Origin: Acidimicrobiales bacterium
GTDB lineage: Bacteria; Actinomycetota; Acidimicrobiia; Acidimicrobiales; SZUA-35
Direction of reading: 5' to 3'
DNA length: 51,298 nucleotides
NCBI GenBank assembly: GCA_020630065.1
Contig: JAHDCC010000010.1
Span: 21,494-72,791 of the forward strand
Position numbers and translations under genes: made by a program. Position 1 is the stretch's first letter, and the number at the start of each line of letters is the position of its first letter. A model generated the notes under the pieces. It had not been told where the DNA came from. It saw only the letters and a list, made by a program, of their open reading frames with translations, and did not search any database. Below are positions 40,808 through 50,043 of the stretch, in pieces.

Positions 40808-41665
40808 GTGGCGCTACATGCTCAATTGTCCTCAATAGATTCTGATCCCGCAGACATAGCGGAACGGCTTCGTTCCGCGGTGGAGGCCACAGGCCCGATG
40901 GTGGTTGCATTTTCGGGTGGCGTTGACTCCTCCCTTCTCGCGGTCGCCGCTCGAAAAATCCTGGGTAAAGACGGTGTTTTAGCGGTAACCGCCGACTCGG
41001 AATCCCTCGCAGACGGAGAACTCGAGCGTTGCGAACAGATTACTACTTCGTGGGATATTACATGGCAGGCGGTGTCGACCGACGAGCTATCTGATGACCG
41101 CTACGTATCCAATGACCGAGATCGCTGCTATTGGTGTAAGTCGGCGCTGATGGACCAACTTGAACCTATCGCCAGAGAACACGGGGGTGTAATCACGCTT
41201 GGGGTGAACCTTGACGATTTGGGCGATCATCGCCCCGGTCAACAAGCAGCCCAAGAACGGGGTGCTTGTTTCCCGATGGTTGACGCCAAACTCACAAAAC
41301 CAGATGTACGGGCTTTGGCCAAACACTGGGGGATTTCGACCTGGGATCGTCCAGCGATGCCTTGTCTGTCCAGCCGTCTCCCCTACGGGACACAGGTGAC
41401 GGTGTCGTTGTTGTCTAAGGTGGATCGGGCTGAAAGTGCGCTCAGAAAATTAGGTTTCGAAGACGTTCGTGTTCGCCACTATGGTGACACGGCCCGCATC
41501 GAACTGCCAGCCGATCAACTGGTGCACGCCGCCGAACAAGGCGACAACATCGTCCAGGCAGTCGAAAAAGTAGGCTACCGGTACATAACTCTGGATTTAG
41601 CAGGACTCCGATCAGGCAATCTAAATTCCAGCATCAACAATGAGAGTTCGGTCCACCGTGGGTGA
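40808..41665 (+). CDS. larE: LarE, ATP-dependent sulfur transferase of the nickel-pincer cofactor pathway
   Basis: 285 residues from a GTG at 40808. N-type ATP pyrophosphatase loop AFSGGVDSS (34-42). Sulfur is inserted into the P2CMN precursor. Cys186 in AMPCLSSRLPYG corresponds to the sacrificial Cys of Lactobacillus LarE. Cys107 and Cys110 in RCYWCKSAL are also present; this three-Cys pattern is the one I recall for LarE forms that hold a [4Fe-4S] cluster and act catalytically, so this one may not destroy its own Cys. larB starts 26 bases before its stop. Confidence 0.93.
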   Translation: MALHAQLSSIDSDPADIAERLRSAVEATGPMVVAFSGGVDSSLLAVAARKILGKDGVLAVTADSESLADGELERCEQITTSWDITWQAVSTDELSDDRYVSNDRDRCYWCKSALMDQLEPIAREHGGVITLGVNLDDLGDHRPGQQAAQERGACFPMVDAKLTKPDVRALAKHWGISTWDRPAMPCLSSRLPYGTQVTVSLLSKVDRAESALRKLGFEDVRVRHYGDTARIELPADQLVHAAEQGDNIVQAVEKVGYRYITLDLAGLRSGNLNSSINNESSVHRG

Positions 41666-42296
41666 ATCTATTCCAGAGTTCAGGCTAGATGTTGACCGGA
41701 CCCGTCGAATCAAGATGCCTGAAGCTGTCTACTGCCACCATAAAACAGTTGAACAGTGTGTCGACATCGTGGGCGAATTCCTCGAAACATCCACCGATGC
41801 CGTCATCGCTACCCGGGCAACCCCAGACCAGTTTGACGCCCTCACCAAGCTGCAACCAAACTCGGCTACAGGAACAACACTGACCTGGCGGCCCCGACCG
41901 CCGACCGGCAGAACTGCCAGTGTCTTGTGTGCCGGAACTTCCGACCTTCCAGTTGCTAGCGAAGCAGTCGAGACGTTAACCGCGCTCGGCCATTCGGTTG
42001 ACCTGAAAGTCGATATCGGCGTCGCCGGACTCCATCGGCTCCTATCGGTTCTTGACGAGATAGTCGCCGAGGTGGTTATTGTTTTGGCTGGTATGGAAGG
42101 GGCCTTGCCGACCGTGGTAGCCGGGCTTGTTTCCCAGCCGATCATTGCTGTACCAACCTCGGTCGGGTACGGAACCGCCTTTGACGGCCAAACCGCACTG
42201 ATGTCGATGTTGACCAGTTGCGCCCCAGGAATCTCGGTTGTCGGTATCGACAACGGGTACGGCGCGGCGAGCGCGGCACACCGAATTCTGTCATGA
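41640..42296 (+). CDS. larB: LarB, pyridinium-3,5-biscarboxylate mononucleotide synthase
   Basis: 218 residues. It carboxylates nicotinic acid adenine dinucleotide at C5 and hydrolyses the anhydride. It belongs to the PurE/AIR-carboxylase fold: VLCAGTSDLPVASEAVETLTALG, VVIVLAGMEGALPTVVAGL, IAVPTSVGYG, GIDNGYGAA. The N-terminus (PEAVYCHHKT) matches the LarB lead-in PEVVYGEGKT. The ATG at 41640 overlaps larE, and the stop overlaps larC as ATGA, so all three are coupled. Confidence 0.94.
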   Translation: MRVRSTVGESIPEFRLDVDRTRRIKMPEAVYCHHKTVEQCVDIVGEFLETSTDAVIATRATPDQFDALTKLQPNSATGTTLTWRPRPPTGRTASVLCAGTSDLPVASEAVETLTALGHSVDLKVDIGVAGLHRLLSVLDEIVAEVVIVLAGMEGALPTVVAGLVSQPIIAVPTSVGYGTAFDGQTALMSMLTSCAPGISVVGIDNGYGAASAAHRILS

Positions 42297-43480
42297 CCAG
42301 TCACGGCAATCGAACGCTGTGGATCGACCCGACGTTTGGAGCGTCGGGCGACATGATGCTCGGTGCTCTTAGTGCGTTAGGTGGATCGATTGACGAGACT
42401 AGGCGGCAGCTTCAATCGTTAAATATTGACGGATGGGAAATAGGTGCCGAGGTGGTCAAACGGTCCTCCATCACGGCGACCTATGTCAACGTCGAAACCG
42501 AAGACCAACATCATCATCGTCCCTGGTCGCAAATAGATCAGCTCTTGGCGGAATGCCAACTCCCAGGCAATATCGCGGCCAATAGTCGGGCGACGTTCAA
42601 GCTCTTGGCCGAAGCCGAAGCCGCCATCCACGGTGTCCCGATCGACGAGGTCCATTTCCACGAGGTAGGAGCCGTAGACGCAATTGTCGATATTGTCGGG
42701 TCTTGGATACTTTTCGACCAGCTCGACCTACATGCAGTTGTTGTCGGCTCGGTCGGTCTGGGGCACGGAACTGTCGAAACCGAACATGGAACACTGAATG
42801 TGCCCGCCCCAGCTACGAGGACGATTCTTGAAGGAGCGCCCGTCCACCCGGTCGATGTTGCGGCCGAAACGATCACACCCACAGGCGCCGCCTTGTTAAC
42901 AACCATGGCAACAACGTGGGGCCCACCACCGCCCGGGGTTGTCATCAGTTCAGGTCGAGGAGCTGGCGGACGTAACCCTGCGAGCTATCCCAATGTTCTA
43001 ACCGTGTCGCTGCTCGACACGTCCACGCAACCCGTCATGTTGGCCACCAATCTAGACGACGTGACCGCTGAGGTGGTTGGACATCTCGTAGAGCAGTTGT
43101 TGTCGGCTGGGGCAGATGACGCGTGGGTAACCCCGATTGTGATGAAAAAGAACCGACCAGGTTATGAGCTTAACGTTCTTGCATCGACGGCAACCAGAAG
43201 TCGGTTAGAACAGCTGGTGTTCTCCCAGACCCAGACGCTAGGTATGAGATCTTGGCCGGTAACCAAAACGGTTCTACCTAGACGATTCGAAGAGGTATCG
43301 GTTCGGGGTTCCGTCGTCAATATCAAAATAGGTCCTCACGGCTATAAACCGGAACACGACGACCTGGTAGCAGTCTCCGAAAGTACCGGCGTGGGTTTAC
43401 AACAACTCGCGTTCGAAGCGCGCCAAGCCTACGAACGTTTATCGTCCGACTCGCCACTCGACGACGAGCGTGCTACCTGA
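42293..43480 (+). CDS. larC: LarC, nickel insertion protein of the pincer cofactor pathway
   Basis: 395 residues from the ATG at 42293. It inserts nickel in a CTP-dependent reaction. N-terminal part: WIDPTFGASGDMMLGAL, EVHFHEVGAVDAIVDIVGSW with the His-rich metal site, PAPATRTILEGAPV. C-terminal part: TNLDDVTAEVVGHLVEQL and VMKKNRPGYELNVLAST, plus IKIGPHGYKPEHDDL. It is one continuous frame; the frameshifted larC1/larC2 of Lactobacillus is not seen. A His run (HHHH) lies near residue 84. larA is not in the window. Confidence 0.94.
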   Translation: MTSHGNRTLWIDPTFGASGDMMLGALSALGGSIDETRRQLQSLNIDGWEIGAEVVKRSSITATYVNVETEDQHHHRPWSQIDQLLAECQLPGNIAANSRATFKLLAEAEAAIHGVPIDEVHFHEVGAVDAIVDIVGSWILFDQLDLHAVVVGSVGLGHGTVETEHGTLNVPAPATRTILEGAPVHPVDVAAETITPTGAALLTTMATTWGPPPPGVVISSGRGAGGRNPASYPNVLTVSLLDTSTQPVMLATNLDDVTAEVVGHLVEQLLSAGADDAWVTPIVMKKNRPGYELNVLASTATRSRLEQLVFSQTQTLGMRSWPVTKTVLPRRFEEVSVRGSVVNIKIGPHGYKPEHDDLVAVSESTGVGLQQLAFEARQAYERLSSDSPLDDERAT

Positions 43481-43652: not shown

Positions 43653-43726
43653 ATCGTCCGAAGGTATTGTGGAGCTGGGATTGCCCGAAGGTGAGACTTC
43701 GGTTTAGTGCAAATGAGGACATAATT

Positions 43727-45646
43727 ATGGCGGGCTCGGAAGAGACGGCGGATTCTACAGAGCTGGATGGCGTCGAGAATGCGGTCGCATCTTCGACCGA
43801 AGACGACGTTGTGGAAGATGCAGACAGCGAAAAGGAAGACCACCAAGAAAACAGCGACGGGGGTGATACCACCGACGATTCGACTGCCGAGGACCCCTCA
43901 GATAACGGCAACTCGTCGCAGGGTTCGACCCAGGCCGACAACACCGAGCCTTCATCGAGCAGACGAGCGTTTCTTTACGGGGCGGTAGGCGGCGGCGTCG
44001 GGTTAGCAATTGGGGCAACAGCTGGATCGGCGTTGAGTCGCAACAACCAAGATCAGCCAGACTCAACCACCGAGACTGTTACGTCAACCGGCAACGCTGA
44101 AATTGATATCACCACCGACGCAGGGCAGGCGTATACGCTTCGAATCGATTCTGCCCGTCAGCACTACGACGAAACTTTTAAACTCGACGTTCAGCCGACA
44201 AACGGTGACGAAGACCGATATAGCTCTGAGAATTTCTACGCCAGTTTCACCAAGACGTTGCCCAGTAACGAATTTGGAGAGGTAGACCCGGACGCATTCA
44301 ATCTGTTCACTAAGGCATTGACCACAGGTGAATCGGACGATTTCGACGCTATTGTGCTCGCCCCGAACGCCGAAGCCAAACTGGCTAACCCGCAGGCCGC
44401 GTTTAGTTCGGTTTTGACCGGCAAAGGCGGTGAGACTACCCGCATAAACCCGTCTCACACGTTCAGAAGTCCCCAGCTGGCGGCGGAAATGTCGGAGGTC
44501 TACTGGCAGGCTCTTCTCCGTGACACCCCGTATGCAGACTATGAGGCCGATGCCGACGTCGAAGCTGCGGTTACAGACTTGAACGCAATGGAGGCAACCC
44601 CAGGGCTGGTCGAGACCCCGGCATTGGACGCGTCCTTGTTGTTTCGGGGTGAAACCAAAGGGGATCGTATCGGCCCCTACATCAGCCAGTTCTTGTTTCA
44701 CGATTTCAACTTCGGCCCACTGCGGGTCTCTCAGCGCTACCCGTCTCCTCTTCCTGGCGTAGACTATTTAGCCGACGTCGAATCGTGGCTGGCTATCCAA
44801 CAAGGTGCGGCGCCAGCTTCGCAGATACTGGACGATTCGACCCAACGATATATTTTCAACAATCGCACGCTGGGTGAGTATGTGCATCGAGACGTTACTT
44901 GTCAGGCCTATATTCATGCTGCGTTTATCCTGCTGCAGCGTGGCCCAGAAATGGTTGACCCTTCCAACCCGTACGTTGGAGCGGCGAACCAAGGTGGGTT
45001 TGTGACGTTTGGTCCTCCGTTTGTGTTGGATCTTGTGATGAGAGCGGCGAAACTTGCGCTTTCCGGCGCCTGGTACCAAAAATGGCGGGCTCATCGCCTT
45101 CTTCGACCTGAGGCCTATTCGGGCCGCGTTCACTTCACCCTTTCGGGCGATCGTGACTACGAGGTTCACAACGATGTGTTGGATTCGGAGGCGGTCTCCC
45201 GACTGCTGACCACGAACGAGACGGCTCTGCTTCCGGTTGCATACCCTGAGGGTTCACCCACCCATCCGTCGTTCCCGGCTGGACATGCCAATATCGCTGG
45301 TGCTTGTGTCACGGTCTTGAAGGCGCTTTTTGATGAGGACGCTGTGTTTCCCGAGCCCGTTGTGGCGACCCGGAACGGGCTGGAACTGGTCACCTATAGC
45401 GAGACTGATCTGACGGTAGGAGACGAGTTGAACAAACTGGCGAGCAATATCTCGCTCGGGCGTGACGCAGCCGGAGTCCATTACCGCCAAGACGGCATCC
45501 AAGGTCTCGAAGCCGGTGAACAACAAGCCATCTCACTGCTGCAAGACATTTCTCGCACAACAAGCGAAGCCGGATTCGATGGGTTTAGTTTCACCCGTTT
45601 TGACGGCTCAGCGATCAGAATCAAAGACGGTCAGATAAAGACATAG
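43727..45646 (+). CDS. Vanadium-dependent haloperoxidase-like protein with Tat signal
   Basis: 639 residues from the ATG at 43727 (GAGGA upstream). Residues 1-77 are a very acidic Ser/Asp/Glu region. Twin-arginine signal SSSRRAFLYGAVGGGVG (Arg79-Arg80) with hydrophobic core to ~100. The catalytic domain (about 300-639) has the vanadate-pocket residues: KWRAHRLLRPEAYSG (~451-465), SPTHPSFPAGHANIAG (~510-525) and GRDAAGVHYRQD (~578-589), whose last His would bind vanadate. It is related to PAP2 phosphatases. Exported, it could oxidise halides with peroxide or act as a phosphatase; the sequence does not decide. It stands 124 bases upstream of the four-gene operon. Confidence 0.88.
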   Translation: MAGSEETADSTELDGVENAVASSTEDDVVEDADSEKEDHQENSDGGDTTDDSTAEDPSDNGNSSQGSTQADNTEPSSSRRAFLYGAVGGGVGLAIGATAGSALSRNNQDQPDSTTETVTSTGNAEIDITTDAGQAYTLRIDSARQHYDETFKLDVQPTNGDEDRYSSENFYASFTKTLPSNEFGEVDPDAFNLFTKALTTGESDDFDAIVLAPNAEAKLANPQAAFSSVLTGKGGETTRINPSHTFRSPQLAAEMSEVYWQALLRDTPYADYEADADVEAAVTDLNAMEATPGLVETPALDASLLFRGETKGDRIGPYISQFLFHDFNFGPLRVSQRYPSPLPGVDYLADVESWLAIQQGAAPASQILDDSTQRYIFNNRTLGEYVHRDVTCQAYIHAAFILLQRGPEMVDPSNPYVGAANQGGFVTFGPPFVLDLVMRAAKLALSGAWYQKWRAHRLLRPEAYSGRVHFTLSGDRDYEVHNDVLDSEAVSRLLTTNETALLPVAYPEGSPTHPSFPAGHANIAGACVTVLKALFDEDAVFPEPVVATRNGLELVTYSETDLTVGDELNKLASNISLGRDAAGVHYRQDGIQGLEAGEQQAISLLQDISRTTSEAGFDGFSFTRFDGSAIRIKDGQIKT

Positions 45647-45770
45647 TTGACCATCTCGATCTATTAAGATTTTTAACTTGATAGCTGGCAGCCGTTGTAA
45701 ACCTATCCCACAACGAGAAATGGGGGGTTTCCACTACGGTGCTGCCAGATATTTTGCCGATACTGAATTC

Positions 45771-46208
45771 ATGAACCTTTTGGGAGCAACCCAACACCGA
45801 ATCGGGCTAGTGAGTCTAGTAGTGTTGACGGCTGCGTTTTTCGGCCGGGTTGCTGCTCAACTTACGCAACGATTTGCCCAAATCGACGCGTTACCAGAGT
45901 TTGTGTCTTGGCAGTCTGGGGCGCTTCCGTACCCTGCCCTCGTGGTCTCCCAAGTCGCGATTCTGGTGGCCATGGTCTGGGTGATCAGCCGTGTCCACGA
46001 CAACTCGCTTGACATGGCTAGACGGACTTCGCTAATCGTGGCCGGCCTTGGTGTCATCTATTTTGTGTCGATGCTGGTGCGAATGGTCATCGGTTTGACG
46101 GTCGGTTCAGGCCACTCATGGTGGGACGCTCCGCTACCGACGATATTTCATCTCGTATTGGCGTCCTTTGTACTCGTCACCGCTTTTGTCGGGCGGAGCG
46201 AACAATGA
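45771..46208 (+). CDS. Four-helix membrane protein of the GH3 operon
   Basis: 145 residues from the ATG at 45771; an ATG at 45720 or the open frame from 45678 are alternatives. Four hydrophobic segments: LVSLVVLTAAFFGRVAA, ALVVSQVAILVAMVWVI, LIVAGLGVIYFVSMLV, FHLVLASFVLVTAFV. No family name is certain. It ends ATGA with the hydroxylase gene, so it should work with it, perhaps as a membrane partner or transporter of the lipid product. Confidence 0.6.
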   Translation: MNLLGATQHRIGLVSLVVLTAAFFGRVAAQLTQRFAQIDALPEFVSWQSGALPYPALVVSQVAILVAMVWVISRVHDNSLDMARRTSLIVAGLGVIYFVSMLVRMVIGLTVGSGHSWWDAPLPTIFHLVLASFVLVTAFVGRSEQ

Positions 46209-47104
46209 CTCGGCTGATCGATACCGCCACCTACCCAATGGTGGTTGCTTCGACCGTGGCCGTATATGTCGTGTTGGCTTCCGCAATGCCTCCAACCTTT
46301 GCTAGCTATATCGCTGTGGCTGGCGGGGCGTCGGCAATCACGGTGTTGGAGATACTTCGACCACACCGACAAAGGTGGCGACCAGACCAGCGAACAATCC
46401 TCAACGACGCAGTGTTTCTAGCCGTCGTGCAAATGATGCTTCCGGTGATCGTCACCCTTCCGGTCACTATCTGGCTGAGTGGCCGAATCAGCCCTTCGGG
46501 GTTTCAAACGTTTTGGCCCCACGATCAACCAATCCTAGTTCAAGTGGTTGCCATGCTCGTCGTTGGTGATTTCTTCCGGTACTGGATGCATCGGGCAGCG
46601 CATCAATCAACCAGACTGTGGCAGTTTCATGCCGTCCACCATTCACCAAAGAAACTGTATTGGCTTAACGTCGGACGTTTCCATCCGTTTGAGAAGGCGG
46701 TACAACTGCTGGTCGATTCACTACCGTTCGCGCTACTAGGCGTAGACGATAAGGTCTTGGCCGGGTATTTCGTTTTCTACGCCATCAACGGTTTCTTCCA
46801 ACATTCGAACTGCCGAGTTCGACTCGGTTTTTTAAACTATGTTGTTGCCGGGCCTGAGCTTCACCGGTGGCATCACTCCCGAATCATCGATGAGTCCGAC
46901 CGGAACTTTGGCAACAATCTAATCGTGTGGGACACCCTCTTTGGCACCAGGTATCTGCCAGCTGACCGTGAAGTCGACGAGTTGGGTCTGCTGAACCCGA
47001 TGTATCCTGACGGGTTCGTCGAACAGTTGACGACACCGTTCCAGTTCGGTCTGGAGAAAGCTAACTACCCGACGCCACAACCCGATCAGGCAGGTCAAAA
47101 ATGA
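46205..47104 (+). CDS. Fatty acid hydroxylase/sterol desaturase family protein
   Basis: 299 residues, about four to five helices, di-iron enzyme. The eight-His set is in three boxes: HRAAH (in FRYWMHRAAHQ), HAVHHS, and HRWHHS with HSNCR between. It would hydroxylate a lipid acyl chain or related substrate using O2. The substrate is not readable; bacterial members also modify sterols, hopanoids and ornithine lipids. The ATG overlaps the upstream stop, and the GH3 gene begins at its stop (ATGA). Confidence 0.9.
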   Translation: MTRLIDTATYPMVVASTVAVYVVLASAMPPTFASYIAVAGGASAITVLEILRPHRQRWRPDQRTILNDAVFLAVVQMMLPVIVTLPVTIWLSGRISPSGFQTFWPHDQPILVQVVAMLVVGDFFRYWMHRAAHQSTRLWQFHAVHHSPKKLYWLNVGRFHPFEKAVQLLVDSLPFALLGVDDKVLAGYFVFYAINGFFQHSNCRVRLGFLNYVVAGPELHRWHHSRIIDESDRNFGNNLIVWDTLFGTRYLPADREVDELGLLNPMYPDGFVEQLTTPFQFGLEKANYPTPQPDQAGQK

Positions 47105-48801
47105 AAACAAAAGATCGACTGATAGCTACGATATTCAAGGTTGTGATGTGGCGTCTGCGCCGAAAACTATGGCCGCCCTTTGTCGAAGCGTCCCGTAACC
47201 CAGCGTTAACCCAGAACGAAGTTCTCCAAAGAATCGTCGCGACCAACGCCGACACCGTCTTTGGCCGGAAGCACGGATTCGAATCGATCAAATCAGCTTC
47301 AGACTTTCGTCGGGCTGTGCCAATCCAATACTACGAATCGCTTCGACCATACATCGAAGACCAAGAACAAAACGGGACAGCTGCACTAACTATCGAAGCA
47401 CCAGTGTTATACGCCCAGACGAGTGGCACCAGCGGCAGCCCCAAGTACCTTCCCGTGACGGCGTCCGGGCTTGAACGGATCAAACGAGCCCAACGGATGT
47501 ATTCGGTTTCGGTCGCGGCACAAACCAACATGCTTTCAGGCAAAGTCGTCGGAATTGGCAGCCCTGCGATAGAGGGCCACTTGCCTGGGGGAACCCCGTT
47601 CGGTTCGGCCAGCGGAATGATCTATGAAGGAATGCCACGTCTAGTTCGAAGCAAATACGTAATCGGACCTGAGGTCTTAGCTATCGAGGACCACGACGCA
47701 AGATACATGGCGATCGCAGCGTTGGCGTTGGCTGAACCGGATGTATCTGGGTTCGCTACCGCCAACCCTTCGACGCTGCTGCGACTTCACTCGATTATCG
47801 TTGACCATTTCGATGAGTTGGTGACCGCAGTCGAACGAGGCGAACTTGGCTTCGTCCAACGCCTGTCGAGAACCCAGCAACAAGAATTGCGTGATTTCTT
47901 GACCCCTGACCTTGCACGGGCCGATCATCTCCGTTCGCTTCACAGTCGACACGGACGCAATCTGACCTATGGCCACATTTGGCCCGATTTGAATGCCATC
48001 ACCACATGGACTGGAGGCAGTTGCGGGTTCGCAGTCGACGCCTTACGAGAGCTTCTCTCCCCCGCTACTCACATCGTCGAACTTGGTTACTCGGCCAGCG
48101 AGGTAAGAGGTGCGATCGGGGTAGATACCGAAACGAACACGGCTGCGCCGCTGTTGGGTGACAACTGGTTTGAGTTTGTCGAGCGCCACATCCGAGAAAG
48201 CCGAGACGGCGTGTTGGTGCCCGACGACTTTCTAGATCTTTGTGAACTCGAACAGGGCAAACAGTACTACGTGTATGTCACTACCCTGGATGGCCTCTAC
48301 CGCTATGACATGAACGATGTGGTCGAGGTAACCGGGATGTTCGAAAATACTCCCAGTATTTCTTTCGTGCAGAAAGGTCAAGGTGTCACGAACATTACCG
48401 GCGAGAAGCTCTGTGAGAGCCAGATGCTCGAAGCGGTCTCTCACGCCCAGACCGAGCTCGGTCTGACAACATCGTTCTTTGTGGCCCTCGCTGACGAAGC
48501 TAACGCCCACTATCGGCTCTATGTCGAGCATGGGGACGAGCCATATTATGGGCCCCGAATGGCAGAGCTTGTCGACCAAAAACTCGGGGAACTAAACATC
48601 GAATATAAATCGAAGAGGAGCAGCGGACGGCTGGGCCCGTTGGTCGGGTTCGACCTCGTCTCAGGAACCGCAGAGTTGTACCGATCTGAACTCGTCAAAG
48701 CCGGCCAGCGGGACGCACAGTTTAAATATTTACAGGTTCAGAACCTAGCTGATTGCCCATTCAGTTTCGATTCACACATCAAAGCTTCGGCGGTTCGATG
48801 A
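47101..48801 (+). CDS. GH3-like acyl-adenylating amide ligase
   Basis: 566 residues, full length for GH3. The ANL-type ATP site is QTSGTSGSPKYLPVT (106-120), later ELGYSASEVRG and YVYVTTLDGLYRYDMNDVVEV with the hinge, then GEKLCES. GH3 enzymes activate a carboxylate as acyl-AMP and join it to an amino acid. Plant forms use auxin and jasmonate; the bacterial ones are poorly known. Coupled on both sides by ATGA overlaps, it is likely the central joining enzyme of this operon. No carrier-protein gene is nearby, which fits direct amide formation. Confidence 0.9.
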   Translation: MKTKDRLIATIFKVVMWRLRRKLWPPFVEASRNPALTQNEVLQRIVATNADTVFGRKHGFESIKSASDFRRAVPIQYYESLRPYIEDQEQNGTAALTIEAPVLYAQTSGTSGSPKYLPVTASGLERIKRAQRMYSVSVAAQTNMLSGKVVGIGSPAIEGHLPGGTPFGSASGMIYEGMPRLVRSKYVIGPEVLAIEDHDARYMAIAALALAEPDVSGFATANPSTLLRLHSIIVDHFDELVTAVERGELGFVQRLSRTQQQELRDFLTPDLARADHLRSLHSRHGRNLTYGHIWPDLNAITTWTGGSCGFAVDALRELLSPATHIVELGYSASEVRGAIGVDTETNTAAPLLGDNWFEFVERHIRESRDGVLVPDDFLDLCELEQGKQYYVYVTTLDGLYRYDMNDVVEVTGMFENTPSISFVQKGQGVTNITGEKLCESQMLEAVSHAQTELGLTTSFFVALADEANAHYRLYVEHGDEPYYGPRMAELVDQKLGELNIEYKSKRSSGRLGPLVGFDLVSGTAELYRSELVKAGQRDAQFKYLQVQNLADCPFSFDSHIKASAVR

Positions 48802-49964
48802 CCATACCTTCACCGAAACTAACAATTGAAGTCGGCACCTTTGATGTCCCATTCAAAACGGTGTTTAAACACACGTCGGCGGCACGCGCTGCCACCGAAA
48901 ACGTCGTGGTTCGACTAACCGACCCCGACGGCGTAGTCGGCTACGGTGAAGGCTGCCCTAGACAATACGTGACTGGAGAGACCAAAACCACCGCTATCGA
49001 GTTCGTCGAATCCTATGCTGGCGAAGTCGTTGAAGGTTCGCCTGATGTAGAAGGGCTACGCACTCAAATCACGAAACATCGATCGGTGATCGATAAGAAT
49101 CCGGCGGCCTTCTGCGCCATCGAACTCGCAGTCCTCGATCTACTGACCCGAAAAAACAATCAAACCATCGAAGAGCTACTCAGCCAACAACGACTACCGG
49201 CTAGTTTCACCTACAGCGCCGTTATTGGCGATAGCGGTCCGCTAACTTTTTCGGCCCAACTTTTGCGGTATCGAGCATTCGGCCTCCGAGACTACAAACT
49301 GAAAATCTCCGGCGACGTCAATCGGGACAAAACGAAACTTCGATGGTTCAAAGGCCATTTCGGTCGGCTAGTCGCAAACACTGTGCGGATCGATGCCAAC
49401 AATCTTTGGACCGAACCAGACGAAGCCATCCGGTATTTGAAGGCCTTAGAGTTCGAGTTTCTTGGTGTGGAAGAGCCTATGGTTGCAGACGATCTAGAGA
49501 GTTCTCTAGCCGTAGCCGAAGCCCTCGACACCCGCATCATTTTGGACGAGAGTTTACTTCGAGCCGAACAGCTTGAGCAACTGCCTGGTGATCCGGACCG
49601 GTGGATTCTGAACTGCAGAGTGTCAAAGTCGGGGGGCCTGCTTCGTTCACTTGACCTGATCGAAGCTTCGGTAAAGGGTGGACTCGGCGTCATAGTTGGC
49701 GCCCATGTTGGAGAAACCAGTTTGTTGACCAGAGCGGCGCTGACGGCGGCACATGCCGCTGGCGGTAGTCTGATCGCTCAAGAGGGGGCATTCGGCACGA
49801 CGCTGTTAACAAACGACATCTGCGACGCTCCGCTAATGTTTGGACGGGGCGGTCAATTGTCGTCATCGTCGCACCCATCGACGTCGCAGCCTGGACTCGG
49901 GATAGACGTTTTGTCAGACCGGCTTGTCGGAATGTCCAAACTAGTTACCGATAGCCAGCGTTAG
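48798..49964 (+). CDS. Enolase-superfamily epimerase/racemase (MLE/AE-epimerase subgroup)
   Basis: 388 residues from the ATG at 48798. N-terminal capping domain with VGYGEGCPR, then a TIM barrel. Acid/base pair KLK (Lys167, Lys169) and Lys277 in CRVSKSGG, metal ligands Asp199 (RIDANNLW), Glu225 (VEEP) and Asp250 (ILDES). This is the muconate-lactonizing subgroup that includes o-succinylbenzoate synthase, N-succinyl-amino acid racemase and dipeptide epimerases. All catalytic residues are intact. No menaquinone gene is beside it, so the racemase or epimerase role is more likely. Last gene of the coupled operon; a hairpin follows. Confidence 0.9.
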   Translation: MTIPSPKLTIEVGTFDVPFKTVFKHTSAARAATENVVVRLTDPDGVVGYGEGCPRQYVTGETKTTAIEFVESYAGEVVEGSPDVEGLRTQITKHRSVIDKNPAAFCAIELAVLDLLTRKNNQTIEELLSQQRLPASFTYSAVIGDSGPLTFSAQLLRYRAFGLRDYKLKISGDVNRDKTKLRWFKGHFGRLVANTVRIDANNLWTEPDEAIRYLKALEFEFLGVEEPMVADDLESSLAVAEALDTRIILDESLLRAEQLEQLPGDPDRWILNCRVSKSGGLLRSLDLIEASVKGGLGVIVGAHVGETSLLTRAALTAAHAAGGSLIAQEGAFGTTLLTNDICDAPLMFGRGGQLSSSSHPSTSQPGLGIDVLSDRLVGMSKLVTDSQR

Positions 49965-50005: not shown

Positions 50006-50043
50006 GTGCGCCACATATCTGAGGCGGCAGACATGTGGCGCAC
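50006..50043. terminator. Strong hairpin after the GH3 operon
   Basis: GTGCGCCACAT (50006-50016) pairs perfectly with ATGTGGCGCAC (50033-50043), extended by TCT/AGA inside. It lies 41 bases after the enolase-family stop and 22 bases beyond the stop of the convergent minus-strand ORF. It lacks a T-tract, so it is either a two-way terminator of the bare-stem type or an RNA stabiliser. Confidence 0.5.

Follow-up and report, generated by a model that had tools for sequence, protein, structure and literature searches.

A conserved hydroxylase, GH3 ligase and enolase-superfamily gene cassette that may direct synthesis of a hydroxylated N-acyl amino-acid lipid

The 51,298-nucleotide stretch of Acidimicrobiales bacterium DNA analysed here (the window; assembly GCA_020630065.1, contig JAHDCC010000010.1, positions 21,494 to 72,791) carries four overlapping genes, which we call TM4, HYD, GH3 and ENO after their predicted products: a protein with four transmembrane helices, a fatty acid hydroxylase-family di-iron enzyme, an acyl-acid amido synthetase and an enolase-superfamily enzyme. 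The last three recur in constant order in widely separated bacteria. We tentatively favour a pathway in which an N-acyl amino acid, formed by an OlsH-like ligase, undergoes epimerisation at the alpha carbon by ENO and hydroxylation by HYD, which would amount to OlsH-like aminolipid synthesis with a stereochemical step added. A hydroxylated N-acyl amino-acid lipid had already been suggested by a sequence-only reading of the window; that suggestion gains support from the closest curated families, OlsE for HYD and OlsH for GH3, while the D or fixed configuration that went with it is still inferred.

A three-sequence ENO alignment was scanned against the contigs of 84,980 prokaryote species and found 73 loci, at which the presence and order of GH3, HYD and TM4 were scored by tblastn. 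GH3 is present at 61 of the loci and HYD at 58, every one of which also has GH3, and in 58/58 the order is HYD-GH3-ENO on a single strand; at the three loci with GH3 and no HYD, the available sequence begins inside GH3. Twelve loci lack GH3; five of these begin inside or just before ENO, and the other seven (L087, L092, L093, L095, L098, L102 and L106) form one group in the ENO tree. TM4 relatives were found at 46 of the 73 loci, and their position is less constant: among the 58 loci with HYD, TM4 lies before the other genes at 24, after them at 19 and on the opposite strand at one, and it was not found at 14, five of which have more than 7 kb on each side. Because HYD, GH3 and ENO are kept close together, on the same strand and in the same order at 58/73 loci, chance is very unlikely, and a chance overlap of unrelated neighbours was rejected as an explanation; conservation of the gene order in relatives, a test set beforehand, extends far beyond close ones. 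Several of the loci are closely related (L067 and L070 were taken as the same contigs as G424 and G343, L029 and L030, which they match in length and content), so these counts are not counts of independent events. Because the scan started from ENO at every locus, HYD-GH3 units without ENO would be invisible to it.

The cassette records are labelled Gamma-, Alpha-, Beta- and Deltaproteobacteria, Acidobacteria, Acidimicrobiia, Chloroflexi, Gemmatimonadetes, Verrucomicrobia, SAR324, Planctomycetes (Blastopirellula), Armatimonadetes (Fimbriimonas) and others; the labels are those of the records themselves, with the phylum supplied where a genus is named. Every cassette record is titled as metagenome-assembled, and no cultured host of the cassette appeared in the 73-locus scan, where the only record of another kind is L102 (Nocardioides immobilis), from the group without GH3. 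Within the same order, a genome of another family (G424) has HYD-GH3-ENO followed by a TM4 relative, with identities to the window proteins of 48% for ENO, 46% for GH3, 56% for HYD and 40% for TM4. At E <= 1e-10, GH3 has a match in 4 of 395 genomes of the class: its own, G343 and G424, which are close, and G306, which is only 25% identical.

HYD and GH3 are joined in one open frame at four loci (L069, L077, L079 and L101), and TM4 and HYD at six (L054, L055, L080, L081, L084 and L103). Pairwise distances are also strongly correlated between the proteins, with Mantel r values of 0.945 for ENO/GH3 (n=43), 0.870 for ENO/HYD (n=40) and 0.894 for GH3/HYD (n=37); each was reached by 0/999 permutations, a statistic in which shared ancestry stays. 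Together, the gene fusions and the correlated distances argue for one pathway.

Residue conservation was read from alignments to which the window protein had been added (ENO from 57 of the 73 loci, with truncated and near-identical loci left out; TM4 from 39, GH3 from 43 and HYD from 40). HYD matches Pfam FA_hydroxylase (PF04116; E 9.5e-30, 104.2 bits against a cut-off of 31), and eight histidines are invariant in 41/41 members (H129 and H133; H142, H145 and H146; H220, H223 and H224), which we take to be the di-iron histidine motifs of that family. OlsE is the sole NCBIfam match at E <= 1e-5 for all 41. Window HYD resembles OlsE (NF052566) over nearly its full length (residues 4-280, E 2.9e-54), but unlike OlsE it is linked to GH3, and its score of 184.4 bits, where membership requires 475, leaves it outside the family. 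When the class was searched with HYD, two cassette copies scored 472 and 443 bits and the others among the matches listed no more than 193.

GH3 belongs to the acyl-acid amido synthetases, as judged from its domains and motifs. The Pfam N, M and C domains (PF03321, PF23571 and PF23572) match at 4e-54, 1.1e-17 and 3.6e-11 (184.3, 64.3 and 44.2 bits against 23.6), and the nucleotide-motif residues are invariant in 44/44 members (T107-S108-G109 and K115, Y330 and E334, G398-L399, R401-Y402 and D406); the motifs used are those of OlsH and plant GH3 enzymes (PMC12493201). OlsH is the sole NCBIfam match at E <= 1e-5 for 44/44 members. Against OlsH (NF052613) window GH3 reaches 84.9 bits where the equivalog cut-off is 620, and since both scores lie well below their equivalog cut-offs, HYD and GH3 are relatives of OlsE and OlsH rather than members.

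OlsH was shown to acylate ornithine with free fatty acid at the expense of ATP, forming N-acyl ornithine; lysine and arginine were minor substrates, and hydroxypalmitate gave a very weak signal. The authors expect other amino acids for other GH3 homologues (PMC12493201). The OlsH/OlsI system of Singulisphaera acidiphila, with OlsG, resembles the window cassette in combining an operonic GH3 ligase with lipid enzymes and in keeping the motifs, and by analogy GH3 here would form an N-acyl amino acid, with free fatty acid and ATP as inputs. The window cassette differs in having HYD, ENO and TM4, and nothing resembling OlsG or OlsI could be recognised among its genes; OlsI, the partner of OlsH, is a protein of the alpha/beta-hydrolase superfamily (PMC12493201). 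Among the sequences in the GH3 tree of the same paper are six from Actinobacteria, of which one carries the label Acidimicrobiaceae, so GH3 homologues were already known in that group. The earlier statement that no described pathway has this gene set needs narrowing: GH3-dependent aminolipid synthesis was published in 2025, but a HYD-GH3-ENO set was not found described in the open-licence PMC literature (preprints lie outside that collection), and the words 'enolase', 'racemase' and 'D-ornithine' are absent from the main text of PMC12493201.

ENO can be assigned to the MLE subgroup of the enolase superfamily on domains (Pfam MR_MLE_C, 4.2e-23; MR_MLE_N, 1.1e-7) and residues. The lysines and metal residues that the sequence-only reading had described as intact are indeed present as K167-x-K169 (codons 49296-49304), D199, E226, D250 and K277 (codon 49626-49628), and all six positions, among them both catalytic lysines and the three metal ligands, are invariant in 51/51 aligned cassette members including that of the window; the K-x-K, D/E/D and sixth-strand lysine pattern is the MLE-subgroup motif. 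The two-lysine site is also found in OSBS and cycloisomerases. Further invariant residues in the 58 aligned ENO proteins are C53-P54-R55-x-Y57-V58 and E329. The predicted structure (mean predicted local distance difference test score, pLDDT, 93.8) matches best, at Z 41.5 in each case, the N-succinyl Arg/Lys racemase 2p88 (root-mean-square deviation, rmsd, 2.2 over 359 aligned) and the dipeptide epimerase 3q45 (rmsd 2.4, 362 aligned), and an ENO profile places the dipeptide epimerase 3jva (1.8e-47), 2p88 (3.5e-46) and 1jpm (3.2e-40) at the top among PDB sequences. ENO is thus like these racemases and epimerases and NSAR/OSBS in fold (Z 37-41.5) and in the K-x-K, D/E/D and second lysine, but it is only 19-24% identical to them, and C53 and R55 are unmatched in 3jva and 2p88 as far as the printed alignments show. 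Dipeptide epimerases have an Asp-x-Asp at the eighth strand; the invariant E329 of ENO lies near that strand, before which the printed PDB alignments end.

In the mechanism that we propose, GH3 would activate a fatty acid as its adenylate, with ATP, and, like OlsH, couple it to the alpha-amine of an amino acid; this may be a basic one, for example ornithine or lysine. The N-acyl amino acid would then lose its alpha proton between the two lysines of ENO, forming an enolate stabilised by Mg2+, and regain it on the opposite face, giving a D or mixed epimer. The membrane enzyme HYD would hydroxylate that epimer, either on the head group, like OlsE, or on the chain, and TM4 might hold the enzymes at the membrane or bind or move the product. 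The expected end product, a hydroxylated N-acyl amino acid in the D or a mixed configuration, would serve as a phosphorus-free membrane lipid or a secreted lipid.

ENO also occurs without some of its usual neighbours. When 396 genomes from the phylum, taken to be Actinomycetota, were searched with the GH3 profile, two further genomes with GH3 came up, G480 and G467, neither of which has a HYD match at E <= 1e-6 (0/2). In the distant genome G480 (L142:1562-5408, minus strand) the order is Hydrolase_4-ENO-GH3, with GH3 34% and ENO 27.5% identical to those of the window; in G467 the contig ends inside GH3. Thus ENO-GH3 can exist without hydroxylation, as observed in one genome, which suggests that ENO is tied to GH3 and not to hydroxylation. 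The four genes accordingly do not form an even unit: TM4 turned up at the fewest loci, and ENO-GH3 exists without HYD.

In a FastTree phylogeny of the 58 ENO proteins, 19 paralogues and the MenC of the same Acidimicrobiales genome, the node uniting all ENO has a support of 0.797, and the seven ENO without GH3 are nested inside it (support 1.0). Five of them (L092, L093, L095, L098 and L102) are in one frame with an alpha/beta hydrolase, identified by Pfam for L093 and 72-86% identical in the other four. This fusion group (Burkholderiales, Gemmatimonadetes, Acidobacteria and Nocardioides) resembles the cassette ENO in its ENO part (37-40% identical), branching inside it, but differs in that no GH3 match was found in the five genomes that carry the fusions (0/5, G799-G803) and in that the second lysine is mostly arginine. 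K277 is arginine in 6/7 aligned ENO without GH3, so these proteins may have another function. The hydrolase of G480 and the ENO-fused one are related (30% over 267 residues, E 4e-24; 28-32% across all five fusions). Beside the fusions we noted two kinds of protein. L093:12003-13130 and L102:12003-13538 (minus strand) encode a protein with a cyclic-nucleotide-binding domain and a match to GNAT (PF13444), convergent with the ENO-hydrolase gene; the PF13444 match is 24.9 bits in one, over the cut-off of 22.4, and 18.4 in the other, under it, and the PDB matches listed for the L093 protein cover only the cyclic-nucleotide part. At L095:8886-10001 and L098:2263-3372 a gene for a protein of about 370 residues, GNAT-like by eye, overlaps the ENO-hydrolase start; it has no Pfam match over cut-off at either locus, and the L095 protein matches nothing in the PDB at E <= 0.5. 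An N-acyltransferase beside the hydrolase-fused ENO at these loci was suggestive, but too weak a candidate to be used. PF13444, which we take to be the Pfam family of OlsB, has no match in the Acidimicrobiales genome (95% complete), a point in favour of the OlsH-like pathway; controls matched in 2 of 14.

A different hydrolase, of CocE/NonD type, stands beside the cassette at 8 of the 73 loci (L040, L041, L043, L048, L089, L096, L097 and L099; 47-100% identity to the L040 copy, with only 64 residues on the contig at L041), and is fused to TM4 in L040, L048 and L089; L096, L097 and L099 are all Phenylobacterium records, and a copy at L082 is just 22% identical. It is possibly an optional fifth member of the cassette. 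Neighbours were clustered from 3248 open reading frames of the 73 loci and the window; since fused frames lumped the four genes into one component, this could hide neighbours, which were re-examined afterwards. The next real-looking cluster covers 15 loci, and the two members inspected resemble ABC transporters.

Several other roles for ENO have to be weighed against epimerisation of the GH3 product. It could be a dehydratase, with HYD hydroxylating the beta carbon and ENO eliminating water to leave an N-acyl 2,3-dehydroamino acid lipid: ENO is present at all 58 HYD loci (partly by construction, as the scan used ENO), cis-3-hydroxy-L-proline dehydratase shows weak similarity to ENO (61.7 bits, E 5.4e-17) and elimination of the OSBS type is known chemistry of the MLE subgroup. 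The hydrolase-ENO-GH3 arrangement of G480, in a genome without a HYD match, disfavours a dehydratase and points to the product or the substrate of GH3 as what ENO acts on; the lysine pair is retained in 51/51 members, although this is weak evidence because OSBS keeps it too. OlsE, moreover, acts on C4 of ornithine and not on C3, according to the title of a work cited in PMC12493201, and we regard the dehydratase as rather unlikely. It is also improbable that ENO, acting like a cycloisomerase or OSBS, makes the acid that GH3 uses, so that the product is an acid-amino-acid conjugate tailored by HYD and resembling those of plant hormones, not a fatty-acid lipid. The best solved relatives of GH3 are indeed plant enzymes for the conjugation of indole-acetic acid, benzoic acid and jasmonic acid, the top NCBIfam score of ENO is to muconate cycloisomerase (TIGR02534, 84.6 bits), and G480 has ENO-GH3 without HYD; but HYD is nearest to a lipid head-group hydroxylase and shares a reading frame with GH3 at four loci, the genome has another menC, and ENO scores far below the cut-off of every named family.

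The hydrolases raise the question of whether ENO supplies or recycles, either racemising an amino acid, be it free, short-acylated or in a dipeptide, ahead of GH3 or serving the turnover of N-acyl amino acids with an alpha/beta hydrolase. The ENO-hydrolase frames with their relative in G480, the CocE/NonD-type enzymes beside the cassette or fused to TM4, and a dipeptide epimerase as the best PDB sequence match all fit such a role, but neither hydrolase type has a match in the window, most of the 73 loci have neither within the fetched flanks, and the arginine in place of K277 in most ENO without GH3 speaks against it as well; we think it an unlikely explanation. That ENO is a menaquinone OSBS lying beside lipid genes by chance is scarcely credible. 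It belongs to the same subgroup and has a weak menC score, but at 77.8 bits (TIGR01928) it misses the cut-off of 200.65, and it is tied to GH3 and HYD at 58 of the 73 loci. The genome has a separate MenC that passes this cut-off with 221.6 bits; it shares 27% identity with ENO (294 positions aligned) and is encoded beside menD and menB on contig C14 rather than C54, so ENO is unlikely to be the menaquinone enzyme, and the OSBS identity was rejected. That ENO would not group with OSBS and menaquinone enzymes, as the sequence-only reading implied, is borne out by these scores.

A number of observations weigh against an OlsH-like pathway in which ENO epimerises the N-acyl amino acid; both its product and the ENO reaction are inferred. 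Window ENO, GH3 and HYD all fall far below the cut-offs of their nearest named curated families; for ENO this includes muconate cycloisomerase (cut-off 334.95), the L-Ala-D/L-Glu epimerases NF011708 and NF041118 (44.7 and 45.0 bits; cut-offs 343 and 500) and the DgcA-type N-acyl amino acid racemase (NF042940; 66.1 bits, cut-off 400). In the structural comparison, muconate cycloisomerases (3i6t, Z 40.7, rmsd 2.3, 356 aligned; 4m0x, Z 40.6, rmsd 2.4, 359 aligned) tie with the racemase and the epimerase at the top, and NSAR/OSBS structures come close (Z about 40), so the ranking cannot name the reaction. That OlsH is nearest to GH3 may be partly by default, because NCBIfam may hold few alternative GH3 families, and no O-acyltransferase was recognised in the cassette. 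Any chain hydroxylation would, by analogy, have to follow GH3, because OlsH barely uses hydroxypalmitate (PMC12493201). Finally, the distribution of the cassette is patchy: the 36 genomes of the same family contain no close copy, with ENO matches at no more than 31% and GH3 matches at no more than 32% identity.

The ORF listing and the sequence agree on the three ATGA overlaps that couple the four window genes, as had been read before (Table 1). The start of TM4 was provisionally taken as the ATG at 45771, the choice of the sequence-only reading, although its frame opens at a TTG at 45678; aligned relatives were trimmed by extrapolation from the chosen start and are therefore not independent of it. 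TM4 has no Pfam match above cut-off, and no Pfam family matches more than 1/40 TM4 members at E <= 0.01. Its AlphaFold model has four long helices (pLDDT 93.4), and F23, R26, P42, L57, Q61, Y97, R104 and H127 are invariant in the 40 aligned members. Fold matches for TM4 were within helical-bundle noise, the top one at Z 8.2 (rmsd 2.6, 62 aligned) as well as a VKOR-like protein at Z 8.1 (rmsd 4.2, 122 aligned), and were not used.

Table 1. Features of the four-gene operon in the window.
Feature	Coordinates	Strand	Description
TM4	45771..46208	+	145-aa four-transmembrane protein; putative start
HYD	46205..47104 (ATG)	+	299-aa FA_hydroxylase-family di-iron enzyme
GH3	47101..48801 (ATG)	+	566-aa acyl-acid amido synthetase
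ENO	48798..49964 (ATG)	+	388-aa enolase-superfamily enzyme, MLE subgroup
ATGA overlap TM4/HYD	46205..46208	+	read from sequence
ATGA overlap HYD/GH3	47101..47104	+	read from sequence
ATGA overlap GH3/ENO	48798..48801	+	read from sequence
Inverted repeat	50006..50043	.	16-nt arms, 94% complementary, 6-nt loop, no T-run

The inverted repeat, about 40 bases 3' of the ENO stop, is a possible hairpin ending the operon. Upstream, and counted outside the four-gene unit, lie LarB and LarC genes of nickel-pincer cofactor synthesis (41640-43480; NCBIfam 242.6 bits for LarB and 180.5 bits for LarC1, both above cut-off) and a gene (43667-45646) for a large protein with an acidic N-terminus, a twin-arginine-like SRRAF signal and a PAP2 match below threshold (E 0.0068), which may be an exported vanadium-haloperoxidase-like enzyme.

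Taken more broadly, and with somewhat greater reserve than for the pathway itself, the cassette may represent an undescribed class of bacterial aminolipid, epimerised by ENO after acylation, hydroxylated in the manner of OlsE and encoded by one co-inherited and perhaps mobile unit in many phyla of bacteria not yet cultured, sponge symbionts probably included. If so, it would be a further GH3-based aminolipid pathway beside the planctomycete one. It would also, to our knowledge, be the first GH3 aminolipid pathway with a built-in stereochemical step, and it would give an unassigned clade of the enolase superfamily a clear biochemical task. Since every cassette record is metagenome-assembled, such a lipid could have gone unmet in cultures; the pathway predicts a lipid to be sought by lipidomics of sponges, soils and sediments.

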